Source: Acidimicrobiales bacterium
Lineage (GTDB): Bacteria > Actinomycetota > Acidimicrobiia > Acidimicrobiales > GCA-2861595
Assembly: GCA_035540975.1 (NCBI GenBank)
Contig: DATLFN010000057.1
Location: forward strand, 1 to 46,081
DNA length: 46,081 bases
Direction: 5' to 3'
Shown: positions 3,716-8,058 of the stretch, one piece after another
Layout of the letters: each line of letters opens with the position of its first letter
How positions within the stretch are numbered: the stretch's first letter is position 1
The notes under the pieces: generated by a model
Databases searched by the model: none
Seen by the model: only the letters and a program-made list of their open reading frames with translations
Told to the model about the DNA's origin: nothing
Position numbers and translations under genes: made by a program

Positions 3716-3920
3716 CTAGATCTCCCGCAGGTCGACGGCGGCGCCGTCGTCGTGGTCGTCCCGCTCGACCAGCGACCAGACCCGCCCGCCACCCGGGCCG
3801 GGTCGGTGAGCCTCCCGTCCCGGTGGAGGTCGAGGAACCTCCGCGGATGCGGGCCTGCATCGCCGTGTCGACCGTGCCCGGCGCGATGGGGACCAGCCGC
3901 TGGGCGCTCCCGGGACCCAC
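3716..3920 (-). pseudogene. remnant of short-chain dehydrogenase C-terminus
   Basis: Three minus-strand frames carry consecutive pieces of what looks like the end of an SDR-family protein. One frame reads [19 protein letters not shown], resembling the SDR APGxVDTxM segment after the active site. A second frame reads [18 protein letters not shown]. The third reads [22 protein letters not shown] before a TAG at 3718-3716. Joined, these give a plausible C-terminal end, so the locus carries at least two frameshifts or small deletions. The N-terminal half with the Rossmann glycine motif and YxxxK is absent; the CHAT gene ends at 3933. I interpret it as a decayed gene displaced by the CHAT locus. 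The assignment rests on recognised motifs, not on an alignment. Confidence 0.6.
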
Positions 3921-3932
3921 CCCGGTGCCCGC

Positions 3933-6602
3933 TCAGGAGGCGACATGGCCCGGACGCCGGGTGGCGGGCGGGGGCCCTCCGTCCCGGTCGTCGGACCCGA
4001 TGCACACGAACGCCCGGGCGGTGACGGGGTCGGAGCCCGTGGACGCGGCGGCCAGGGCGGCGGCCGGGTCGTCACCCGCCCGGAGGCGACCGTGGAGGTC
4101 CACCATCAGCACGGCGGTGGCGTCGTCGGGCACGGCCATGACCGGTGCGATCACGCAGCGCACGCCCAGGCCGATGAGGGCGGCGGCCGTCCCCAGGAGC
4201 TCGTCGCCCGTGCGCACGGCGGAGACGGCCGCATGGCAGGCGGGCAGCACGACCACGGACGGGGCCCGCCGCAGGCGCTCGAGGTCGTACACCGTGAGCG
4301 GGCCGTCGGCCAGCAGCAGCGAGGAGAACATCGGGCTGTCGGCGCGGAAGCTGCCGTGGGCGGCGACGTGGGCCAGGGCCGCCCGCTCCAGGGCGGCGCA
4401 CGCGGCGCTCGCCGTGGCACCGGCGCCGGTGACCACCTCGGCATCGGCGTGCAGCGCGGCGATGGCCCGCACCTCGCCTTCGGCCGCCGGCAGGTTCGGG
4501 CCTGCGACGAGGGCGACGCCGCCGCCGGCGGCCGGGGACGCCCGCCCGCCGGCGAGCCACACGGCGGCACTGGGCGCCACCGTCGTGGGACGCCCGGCCA
4601 GCGTCGGGAGCGCGCCCCACGCAAGGCCGTGCAGGGCGCCCGTGGGCACCACGACGACGGGTGCGGCGGCCGGCAGCCCGAGGGGCGCCAGCAGGAGGTC
4701 GTCGAGGCGCTCGGCGGTGAGGCCCACCAGGTCCTCGGCCGCCCGGCGCGACCGCCGCGCCAGCAGCCGCCGCAGGCCGAACAGCAGGTACTCCACCTCC
4801 TGCTCCACCCGGTCGCCGGGGCCGAGGTCGAACAGCCGGATGCGCCGGCCCACGACGGTCACGGCATGGACGCGGCCCTGGAAGGCCACGAACTCGACCA
4901 GCGCCCGGTCGCCGAGCGCCCGCCGCAGGGCGGCCACGTCCAGCCGCCCGGTGCCGGGCCCACCCTCGTCGCGGGTCTTGAGGGTGCGGTCGCGAACGGC
5001 CTTCTCGACGGTGGCGAGGCGCTGCTGGAGCCGGCGGGGCGGCCCACCGGAGAGGGCGGCGTCCCGCAGCGCGCTGCGCAGGCGGCGCAGCTCCTCGAGG
5101 CCGGCCGCCAGCTCCTCGTCGTCGGGCGGCCGCACGGGCGGGCGCAGCAGCGCTCCCGCCCGGCGCCGCTCCGCCCAGCGCAGCACCCGGCGGGCGTCGC
5201 CGTCGCGCAGGGCGAGGCTGAGCCCCGTGCGGGCCAGGTCGGCGTCGAGGCCGGAGGCGGAGGCCCGCATCTCCGTGGCGCCCAGGGTGGCCCGGTAGGC
5301 GTCGACCACGGCCATTCCCCGGGTGAGCGCCCGCTCGGCTGCCGCCTCGTCCCCCTCAGCCAGGCGCAGCAGCGCGGTGGCGTGCCACGCCCGGGCCCGC
5401 AGGTCGGCGGTGCCCCGGGTGCGGGCGCCGGCCGCCCTGGCCAGCTCGGCCCGCGCGACCGCCGGTCGGCCGAGGGCGAGGGCGAGGCGGCCGACGAAGG
5501 TGCGCACGTGGAGCGCCTCCACCGGCCAGCCCCGGGCCTCCAGGTCCGCCGCGATGCGGCGGCTCCGGCGGAGGAGGTCGGGGGGCGGCACCTGCTGGTC
5601 CTCGCAGGCGGCGACCTCGGCCCGGACGGCGACGTAGCCGGCTTGGGCCGCCCACGGCAGACGGCGCTGGGCGCGGAAGCGCCGGGCCGCCTCGTCGGCC
5701 TCGTCCGCCGCCTCCTTGTAGGCGCCCTCGTCGAGCAGCGCCCGGGCCAGGAGCAGGCGGCACTCGCTGAGGTGGGCCACGTCGCCGGCGGACTCCAGCG
5801 CCGCCACCGCCGCCTCGGCCGCCTTGCGGGCCTCGGCCACCAGCCCCGCCGCCAGGAGCACCTCGCACCGGTCGCCCTCCAGGACGGCGCTCAGGCGGGC
5901 CGGGCGGCCCAGGGCCTGGTAGGCGCGCTCGACCCGCTCGAACGCGGCCAGGGCCTCGGGGACGCTCCCTCGCCGCCCGTGCACGAAGCCCGTGTCGTGG
6001 GCGGCCATGGCCGTGAGGACGGGGAGGCCGCACTCCACCGACAGGCGCTCCGCCTCGGCCAGGTCCTCCAGGGCGGCGTCGGACCGGCCCTGGTACGCGT
6101 GCAGGATCCCGCGGTTGAGCCGCAGGCGGGCGAGCGACGGGCGGTCGCCCACCGTCTCCAGGAACCGGAGGGCGCGCTGGTAGGCGGCCATCGCCTCGTC
6201 GAGCCGGCCGGACCGGGCCAGGCACACGGCGTGGAGCGACTCGACGACGCCCCGCACCGACGCCGGGGCCACGGCACGGGCGGCGGCGATCTCCCGCTGC
6301 GAGCCGGCGGCGTCGCCCTGGGTCATCAGGGAGTACGCCAGGCTGGCCCGGGCGAGCGCCTCGGCGTCGACCAGGCCGGCGGCCGAGCTCTCCGCCACCG
6401 AGCGGCGGTAGCTGGCGATCGCGTCCCTCCCCCGCCCCAGCTCGTGGAGCGAGAGGCCGATGACCCAGTGGACCGTCGCCCGGACGGCGGCGTCCTGGTC
6501 CCCGGCCAGGAGTTGCTGGGCCTGCTCGAGGACCCGGGCCGGGTCGACGTGGCGCTCCTCGGCCAGCCTCCGCAGCTCGTCGACCGCACCGAGGGGTGGC
6601 AC
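3933..6602 (-). CDS. TPR-CHAT caspase-like protease
   Basis: The 889-residue protein has two parts. Residues from about 1 to 450 are alpha-helical tetratricopeptide-like repeats, visible as recurring A/L-rich helix pairs such as ALARASLAYSLMTQGD and LEDLAEAERLSVECG. A helical linker follows. The C-terminal CHAT domain (roughly 600-870) contains VPTGALHGLAWGALP, the catalytic histidine in VAAHGSF (H749) and the catalytic cysteine in LPACHAA (C789). That His-Cys pair is the caspase-type dyad of CHAT peptidases. CHAT proteins usually act as regulated proteases in conflict or cell-death pathways, with TPRs sensing a partner; the trigger here is unknown. The GTG at 6602 is the only in-frame start after the TAG at 6614-6612. 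There is no signal peptide, so it is cytosolic. It is divergent from a subtilase gene 70 bp away, suggesting joint regulation. Confidence 0.9.
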   Translation of the reverse strand: MPPLGAVDELRRLAEERHVDPARVLEQAQQLLAGDQDAAVRATVHWVIGLSLHELGRGRDAIASYRRSVAESSAAGLVDAEALARASLAYSLMTQGDAAGSQREIAAARAVAPASVRGVVESLHAVCLARSGRLDEAMAAYQRALRFLETVGDRPSLARLRLNRGILHAYQGRSDAALEDLAEAERLSVECGLPVLTAMAAHDTGFVHGRRGSVPEALAAFERVERAYQALGRPARLSAVLEGDRCEVLLAAGLVAEARKAAEAAVAALESAGDVAHLSECRLLLARALLDEGAYKEAADEADEAARRFRAQRRLPWAAQAGYVAVRAEVAACEDQQVPPPDLLRRSRRIAADLEARGWPVEALHVRTFVGRLALALGRPAVARAELARAAGARTRGTADLRARAWHATALLRLAEGDEAAAERALTRGMAVVDAYRATLGATEMRASASGLDADLARTGLSLALRDGDARRVLRWAERRRAGALLRPPVRPPDDEELAAGLEELRRLRSALRDAALSGGPPRRLQQRLATVEKAVRDRTLKTRDEGGPGTGRLDVAALRRALGDRALVEFVAFQGRVHAVTVVGRRIRLFDLGPGDRVEQEVEYLLFGLRRLLARRSRRAAEDLVGLTAERLDDLLLAPLGLPAAAPVVVVPTGALHGLAWGALPTLAGRPTTVAPSAAVWLAGGRASPAAGGGVALVAGPNLPAAEGEVRAIAALHADAEVVTGAGATASAACAALERAALAHVAAHGSFRADSPMFSSLLLADGPLTVYDLERLRRAPSVVVLPACHAAVSAVRTGDELLGTAAALIGLGVRCVIAPVMAVPDDATAVLMVDLHGRLRAGDDPAAALAAASTGSDPVTARAFVCIGSDDRDGGPPPATRRPGHVAS

Positions 6603-6672
6603 GCCGCCATGCTAAAGACTTCGTATTCGTGGGTCCGGCGGCGGCTCCGGAACGAGGAAGAGGGAGAAGCCA
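6603..6672. promoter_or_regulatory. shared divergent promoter region of CHAT and subtilase genes
   Basis: This 70-bp space separates the two divergent protease genes and must hold both start regions. It contains one of the few AT-richer patches of the neighbourhood (about 6612-6630, with taaagacttcgtattcg) that could supply -10-like elements in either direction. The plus-strand gene has a strong GGGAG site about 8 nt before its ATG. The minus-strand gene has no clear site and may be leaderless. No operator was recognised. Confidence 0.35.
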
Positions 6673-8058
6673 ATGGCACAGGAAAAGCCGGACGGGCGGC
6701 CGCGCCCCAGCGGCCCGTGGACCGACCGCGTCTCGTTCGCCGACGGGGCCGGGTTCGCCTACGTCCCGGGGTCCGTCCTGACCACCGACCCCGAAGGGCT
6801 GACCGCCGTCGCCCGCCGGCTGTGGGAGAAGGACCGGGTCCGCACGGGTCGGACGCTGGGGCCGTTCACCGAGATCGCCGGGGTGCGCGACCCCCTCGTC
6901 CTGGCCCGCGAGGCGCGGCTGGCCGGCATCGTGGCCCAGCCCGACCACGTGTTCTTCGCCCACTGCGAGCCGTGCTGCCCGCCCCACCCCGCCGCCTCCT
7001 GCGGAGGCGGTGCCGGGGCGAACCCGGTCTACGCCACGCCGGTGTACGCCACGCCGGTCTACGCCACACCCGTCTACGCCACGCCGGTGTACGCCACGCC
7101 GGTGTACGCCACCGACGTCCACGCCAGCCCCGTCTACGCCACGCCCGTGTACGCCACGACGGCGTCGCCCGCCCGGGCGTCGGGCGTGCGCCGGAGCAGC
7201 GCCCGCCCCGCGCCCGAAGGCGTCGACACCACATCGGCCACGGAGGCGTTCGGCGTGGTGGCGGAGGGGCCTCCGCGGGTCATCGTCCTCGACACCGGGT
7301 TCGCCGGCACCGACGCCCCCGGCGCGCTGTCGACGACGACCGTCCGCCCCGCGTCGGCCGCCGACGTCGACGCCCCCGACGAGGACGGCAACGGGTTCCT
7401 CGACCCGGCCTCGGGCCACGGCACCTTCATCGCCGGCCTCGTCCAGCAGGTGGCGCCGGGAACGGAGGTCGTCGTGCACCGCGTCCTTTCCACCATGGGC
7501 GACGGCGCCGAGTCGAACATCGTCCAGTGCCTGGCCGACCTCGAGGTGCCCGACCCGCAGCGGACGATCGTGAGCCTCTCCTTCGGCGGCTTCGCCCTCG
7601 AGCAGGCGTTCGCCCTGGAGTGGGCCGTCCGCCGACTCCAGGCCATGGGCGTCGTGGTGGTGGCTTCGGCCGGCAACGACGGGTCGTGCCGGCCCACGTT
7701 CCCGGCCGCCTTCCCCGGCGTCGTCTCGGTGGGGGCGGTGGGCCCGTACGGGCCGGCGCCGTTCTCCAACTACGGCCCATGGGTCCGGGCGTGCGCGCCG
7801 GGCGTCGACCTGCTCAGCACGTTCTTCGACGGGTACGACGGCAAGGAGCCGCCGGGCGACCGGGGCGTGGACACCGACAAGTTCGACGGCTGGGCGCTGT
7901 GGAGCGGCACGTCGTTCTCGGCGCCGGTGGTGGCCGGTGCGCTGGCCCGCACCATCGCCGCCGAGAAGTGCACGGCCGCCGACGCCGTCAAGCGGGTGGT
8001 CGACGAGCCCGCCCTCATGCGGATCCCGAACCTGGGGACGGTCGTCAACGTGATCTGA
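6673..8058 (+). CDS. cytosolic subtilisin-like serine protease (S8) with PVYAT repeats
   Basis: The protein has 461 residues and an intact S8 catalytic set: aspartate in VIVLDTGF (D207), histidine in GHGTFIAG (H249), oxyanion asparagine in ASAGND (N335) and serine in GTSFSAP (S414). The N-terminal domain (1-90) is not recognised. It is followed by a Cys/His cluster (H92, H97, C98, C101, C102, H105, C110), nine tandem pentapeptides of the type PVYAT (118-162) and a linker of about 40 residues. No Sec or Tat signal or membrane segment is present, unlike most subtilases, so it is probably intracellular. An AGGGAG site precedes the ATG. Its divergent neighbour is a CHAT protease, which suggests a two-protease pathway in which one enzyme may cut or sense the other; that is inference. 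Confidence 0.9.
   Translation: MAQEKPDGRPRPSGPWTDRVSFADGAGFAYVPGSVLTTDPEGLTAVARRLWEKDRVRTGRTLGPFTEIAGVRDPLVLAREARLAGIVAQPDHVFFAHCEPCCPPHPAASCGGGAGANPVYATPVYATPVYATPVYATPVYATPVYATDVHASPVYATPVYATTASPARASGVRRSSARPAPEGVDTTSATEAFGVVAEGPPRVIVLDTGFAGTDAPGALSTTTVRPASAADVDAPDEDGNGFLDPASGHGTFIAGLVQQVAPGTEVVVHRVLSTMGDGAESNIVQCLADLEVPDPQRTIVSLSFGGFALEQAFALEWAVRRLQAMGVVVVASAGNDGSCRPTFPAAFPGVVSVGAVGPYGPAPFSNYGPWVRACAPGVDLLSTFFDGYDGKEPPGDRGVDTDKFDGWALWSGTSFSAPVVAGALARTIAAEKCTAADAVKRVVDEPALMRIPNLGTVVNVI
7024..7158 (+). repeat. nine 15-bp tandem repeats encoding PVYAT
   Basis: Nine in-frame 15-bp units code for PVYAT, except unit seven (7114-7128), which codes for DVHAS. Units differ by synonymous third-position changes (ccg/ccc, gtc/gtg, acg/aca). 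The protein repeat therefore appears to be maintained by selection rather than by very recent slippage. The tract lies between the Cys-rich segment and the catalytic domain of the subtilase. Confidence 0.97.

Follow-up and report, generated by a model that had tools for sequence, protein, structure and literature searches.

The CHAT and S8 protease genes

The window, that is the whole analyzed stretch of 46,081 nucleotides, carries two divergent protease genes, one encoding a TPR-CHAT protease and the other an S8 subtilase (Table 1). Both open reading frames were found as originally predicted, with their catalytic residues intact, and the shared gap of 70 bp between the divergent genes was borne out. 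In the CHAT protein, a caspase-like CHAT domain (Pfam PF12770, E 2e-30) occupies the C-terminal residues 629-854 (nt 4041-4718), and a TPR superhelix (Pfam PF13424, 1.6e-14) lies at the N-terminus. The His/Cys pair was present at the corresponding positions in 81 of the 81 aligned CHAT homologues. The only NCBIfam matches of the two window proteins were to generic S8 models and, weakly, to a histidine-kinase TPR model; no CATRA model was among them.

Table 1. Features of the CHAT/S8 locus in the window and of the trypsin-like proteases found at related loci
Feature	Position	Strand	Remarks
Short-chain dehydrogenase C-terminus-like remnant, frameshifted	3716..3925	-	weak matches
TPR-CHAT protease gene, 889 aa	3933..6602	-	ORF + Pfam
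CHAT catalytic residues	His749 nt 4356-4358; Cys789 nt 4236-4238	-	
CHAT/S8 divergent intergenic region, 70 bp	6603..6672	.	
Promoter-like motif TCGTATTC-N14-GGCTCCGG into S8 gene	6621..6650	+	starts 52 bp before ATG
S8 subtilase gene, 461 aa	6673..8058	+	ORF + Pfam
S8 propeptide-like domain, about residues 20-96	6730..6960	+	predicted model
Tandem repeat linker NPVYAT(PVYAT)n, residues 117-162	7021..7158	+	predicted disordered
S8 catalytic domain with D207, H249, N335, S414	7261..8055	+	
Trypsin-like protease replacing S8	L173:10783-12315	+	SNWHVLAG / GDSG motifs
Trypsin-like protease replacing S8	L089:6227-7756	-	SNWHVLAG / GDSG; Pfam NAL1_N only, weak

The S8 domain match (PF00082, 1.2e-20) covers residues 203-442, and the catalytic residues are DHNS in 73 of the 75 aligned S8 homologues. 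The subtilisin fold was supported by a Foldseek search with the predicted model (E 1.7e-16; AlphaFold2, 41 sequences, pTM 0.82). Assignment to the mycosins (TIGR03921) was rejected, the protein scoring 72.5 bits against a cut-off of 278.75. By inspection, the N-terminus has no visible hydrophobic segment, in agreement with the claimed lack of an export signal. One member of the S8 family (L115:552-1820, minus strand) has a start resembling a twin-arginine signal (MSGLTRRRLLATTGLVAAAAPL), which is either a mis-chosen start codon or an exported exception; start codons in the compared loci are approximate and the gene calls were script-based.

For the N-terminus of the S8 protein, the AlphaFold2 model predicts the fold of a subtilisin propeptide (about residues 29-95). 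In the model, this region has the topology beta-alpha-beta-beta-alpha-beta, with a block pLDDT of 78-93 over residues 21-100, and over about 450-470 columns the whole model aligned in Foldseek with PCSK9 and with pro-subtilisin E in its unprocessed form (3whi). Residues from about 100 to 178 were modelled with low confidence and include the PVYAT repeats, so that the repeat linker sits between the propeptide and the catalytic domain. The proposal that S8 is a zymogen is reasonable, because the predicted model combines a propeptide-like domain with a disordered, repeat-bearing linker.

A decayed dehydrogenase fragment beside the CHAT gene had been taken to suggest that the pair was inserted here. 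The fragment is plausible, as it can be read across three frames of the minus strand between the CHAT 3' end and an acetyl-CoA synthetase-like gene; database support is weak, the stitched query matching sepiapterin reductases at E about 0.07. The remnant is probably outside the system. In an empty-site comparison, the right flank was kept in none of the relatives examined.

A recurring four-gene set in Actinomycetota

A CHAT profile, built from a closer set of CHAT proteins after a first profile had proved too diverse, was run against one genome per species (84,980 species). The 80 loci kept all belonged to Actinomycetota and spanned Lentzea, Saccharothrix, Salinispora, Amycolatopsis, Nonomuraea, Actinoplanes and Acidimicrobiia MAGs. 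They are not 80 independent events, because many come from close species (Lentzea). Neighbours were counted within the fetched flanks of up to 8 kb, and some absent genes fall at contig ends.

An S8 gene was found within 8 kb of CHAT in 73 of the 80 loci, divergent and adjacent in 61 of these 73, with a gap of 64-134 bp in most divergent relatives. In the same-order relatives G002, G004, G009, G011, G022 (two cases), G031, G033, G045 and G056, the nearest CHAT homologue is divergent from an adjacent S8. CHAT and S8 thus form a conserved unit as originally predicted, the linkage recurring in other genomes, and the view that they are chance neighbours was rejected. Two other families, absent from the original prediction, accompany CHAT: a partner protein of about 155 aa (77/80 loci) and an ECF sigma factor (Sigma70_r2; 72/80). 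All four genes occur together in 65/80 loci. When 1,312 neighbour proteins were clustered, four families were constant (80, 77, 72 and 71 loci), the next reached 25 loci, and no fifth constant neighbour appeared around the 80 CHAT genes. Gene order varies, with 11 arrangements, while gene content persists, and the synteny of the module genes is conserved on the chromosomes of Lentzea and Saccharothrix.

S8 is not indispensable, because it was not found even at E 1e-15 in G035 and in the genomes of L100, L122, L157 and L167. At L032 (8995-13192), a close S8 homologue with PLYGS repeats (54% identity in the catalytic part) has a cyclase-AAA-TPR protein as its neighbour in place of CHAT; a further locus in that genome pairs S8 with CHAT.

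In the genome of the window, the sigma factor and the partner lie together on another contig (C72), and neither is near the window pair. The same split was seen in the one-contig genome G173, where the two pairs are about 1.17 Mb apart, and in G142, G099 and G289. The module is therefore made up of two pairs, because split genomes keep S8 with CHAT (G173, G142, G099) and the sigma factor with the partner (G173, G142, G289). Across 296 sampled genomes of the phylum, 23 had a strong match to CHAT (E < 1e-100); every one of these also encodes the partner, as do six others.

The predicted fold of the partner consists of two N-terminal helices and a seven-stranded Ig-like beta-sandwich (mean pLDDT 85). 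The partner had no Pfam match, its profile gave nothing better than E 0.4 against the PDB, with no Csx30 or known anti-sigma factor, and a fold search returned no match below E 0.001. All four module proteins look cytosolic, the partner being without a visible membrane segment. In G031, the partner is followed by another sigma-factor-like gene, the second at this locus (L036:4009-4533, minus strand), and the promoter motif occurs a third time before this gene.

Promoter motif and protease repeats

The two-box motif TGTATCW-N14-nnCTCYG was found upstream of 36/72 sigma factor genes, 22/77 S8 genes and 1/82 CHAT genes, compared with about 1% of random 260-bp pieces. The window site served as one of the seeds for this first count; a second matrix was trained without the Acidimicrobiia loci, and so without this site, which matches it weakly (p = 0.01). 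With the same held-out matrix, sites at p < 0.01 were present in the Acidimicrobiia loci L033, L034, L035, L036, L038, L044 and L109. L036 has sites before both S8 (p 2e-4) and the sigma factor gene (p 1e-4), and L109 likewise has sites before both. The natural reading of the motif, going by its positions, is that it may be the sigma factor's own promoter. A genome-wide scan with a strict pattern gave two sites in the genome of the window and one in the control, and nine in G031, three of them in the module locus, with six in the control. No regulon can be named, because the strict-pattern sites barely differ from the control (2 vs 1).

The repeat-bearing linker of the original prediction is present in the window S8, and such repeats occur in only a minority of S8 proteins. 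Their proline-aromatic units differ: PVYAT in the window, NPVYA in L033, PLYGS in L032, TPYPGG in L035, NPSFFG in L109 and HPFWGG in L187. Of 131 protease ORFs, eight carry tandem P-x-aromatic repeats (six of the 128 distinct S8 ORFs and two of the three trypsin-like ones), compared with 3/16,270 other ORFs of the same loci; these counts are not phylogenetically independent, and the window itself had prompted the hypothesis. The view that the repeats mark the S8 family as a whole was rejected, most members having short linkers that are free of them.

At two loci without S8, in G237 (L089) and G289 (L173), the place divergent from CHAT is taken by a gene for a trypsin-like protease, in which GLEPHYQ/LEPYYQ repeats follow the His motif as an insertion within the catalytic domain. 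Four of the 296 genomes were found to encode the trypsin-like protein; each has the CHAT module, and in three the gene lies at the CHAT locus. We read the second protease of the switch described below as swappable. One locus (L187 / L245, G300) encodes two repeat-bearing proteases, an S8 with HPFWGG units and a trypsin-like one with PVTRDPxGCW-like units repeated at its C-terminus. Within the same order, S8 proteins with SAWTG repeats lie beside GGDEF or histidine kinase genes (L047, L048, L049), a set that also includes a 1611-aa protein with STPIR repeats (PIRST). Short tandem repeats are thus widespread in this lineage and alone are not diagnostic, because SAWTG and PIRST occur in unrelated large or secreted proteins of the order.

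A possible proteolytic sigma factor switch and related systems

Tentatively, we take the CHAT/S8 pair to supply the proteases of a four-gene signalling module in the cytosol that acts as a CRISPR-free proteolytic sigma switch, a leading reading that still falls somewhat short of probable. The 155-aa partner would hold the sigma factor inactive until a stress signal, received via the TPRs, activates CHAT. Active CHAT would then cleave the partner and/or the S8 linker, and S8 is a plausible candidate substrate. The freed sigma factor would transcribe its own operon and the S8 gene, giving positive feedback, and S8 freed of its propeptide may either carry out wider proteolysis or complete the destruction of the sigma inhibitor. 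The near absence of the motif before CHAT genes (1/82) and the weak motif of the window S8 count against this switch, as do the partner's lack of similarity to Csx30 or a known anti-sigma factor and the genomes in which no S8 was found.

It is possible, if on the unlikely side, that the two proteases form a cascade in which CHAT as initiator cuts the linker of the S8 zymogen and S8 is the executioner, the sigma factor and partner controlling expression only. CHAT and S8 are the tightest pair, remaining together after splits and sharing one gap in 61/73 loci, and of the distant pairs they show the best-correlated distances (r 0.85). The predicted propeptide fold and disordered linker of S8 also fit, as do P-x-aromatic repeats that recur in S8 and in the trypsin-like proteases replacing it, the latter confined to genomes with the CHAT system (4/296), and the reported SAVED-CHAT/PCaspase precedent in Haliangium. 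However, a second protease is not required, because subtilisin propeptides normally process themselves. Moreover, most S8 members have short, repeat-free linkers, the trypsin-like repeats lie within the catalytic domain and away from any propeptide junction, and some loci with CHAT, sigma factor and partner are without a close S8.

A bolder proposal, which we consider doubtful, is that a TPR-CHAT initiator recognizes the P-x-aromatic repeats in interchangeable subtilisin- or trypsin-like executioners and simultaneously frees a dedicated sigma factor held by a soluble inhibitor of a new class. This would constitute a CRISPR-independent, feed-forward commitment switch widespread in Actinomycetota.

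Short peptides are commonly bound by TPR superhelices, and the P-x-aromatic grammar is kept while the repeat sequence varies; both would suit repeats that serve the TPRs, or some other scaffold, for docking rather than as cleavage sites, with binding controlling S8. Since most S8 members are without repeats, we regard docking as improbable. The shared motif before S8, as before the sigma factor gene, in many loci could place S8 upstream, cleaving CHAT or the partner, with CHAT as its target or regulator; but CHAT-sigma-partner loci without S8 exist and the obvious sensor repeats are on CHAT, which makes this order very unlikely. That the window genes are unrelated divergent neighbours, or a decayed relic copy, is scarcely credible. 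Sigma factor and partner are absent near the pair and a broken dehydrogenase remnant adjoins CHAT, which would suit such a reading, but the linkage in 73/80 loci contradicts unrelated neighbours, the frames are open with intact catalytic residues, and sigma factor and partner are present elsewhere in the genome.

The suggested role in conflict found no support. PADLOC gave only weak, generic matches in the window (BovA 7.8e-5; generic subtilase 6.6e-10), and the stable synteny seen in Lentzea and Saccharothrix, rather than variable islands, argues mildly against anti-phage defence. A switch for stress or development is no less likely than a defence role, and the recurring four-gene set looks like an intracellular alarm switch present in many actinobacteria. 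The mostly open literature that was searched contained no description of a CHAT-S8-ECF sigma locus, and the sigma factor group may be included in the ECF reclassification. The proteolytic sigma switch, if true, would be a CRISPR-free chromosomal form of the type III-E CHAT-to-sigma logic. The module occurs in cultivable Lentzea, Saccharothrix, Salinispora and Amycolatopsis, where trigger, substrate and regulon are open to genetics, and a repeat-bearing, exchangeable second protease would make the substrates of bacterial TPR-CHAT proteases directly testable.

In type III-E systems, the TPR-CHAT protease Csx29 cleaves Csx30, an inhibitor of the ECF-like CASP-sigma, whose binding motifs include some at the locus that encodes it (PMC10028731). 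By analogy, Csx29/Csx30/CASP-sigma would be the closest functional parallel of the module. As in type III-E CASP/Craspase, the TPR-CHAT gene is accompanied by genes for an ECF-type sigma factor and for a possible sigma-inhibitor protein, and the motif before the sigma factor gene (36/72 loci) makes self-regulation a candidate shared feature. In contrast, Cas7-11 is absent, none of the four constant families in the 80 loci being of Cas7-11 size; the partner of about 155 aa has no detectable similarity to Csx30 (565 aa); and the module adds a second, subtilisin-type protease.

SAVED-CHAT, encoded at a type III-B locus in Haliangium, reportedly activates PCaspase by cleavage. There too a CHAT protease is paired with a second, possibly latent protease. 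However, the window CHAT protein shows only TPR and CHAT in Pfam, with no SAVED domain, and the second protease is of the S8 (or trypsin-like) type rather than caspase-like.

The TRADD-N/EACC2-caspase systems occur with an ECF sigma factor and a TPR protein, and some with trypsin-like peptidases (PMC8195603). They share with the module a neighbourhood of caspase-superfamily protease, TPR and ECF sigma factor, whereas the window proteins have another architecture and no TRADD-N or DUF1822 match. The S8 catalytic domain is common to the window protein, mycosin and other actinobacterial S8 proteases, while the window S8, unlike mycosin, is without a visible signal peptide. As in ECF sigma/anti-sigma pairs, a motif is common to the sigma and S8 promoters, and the sigma factor would be its reader. 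Proteolysis as a route to ECF sigma release is likewise known from membrane RIP (DegS/RseA/RpoE, site-1/site-2 proteases), but here the proteins look cytosolic, the proteases are CHAT and S8, and the partner has no visible membrane segment.
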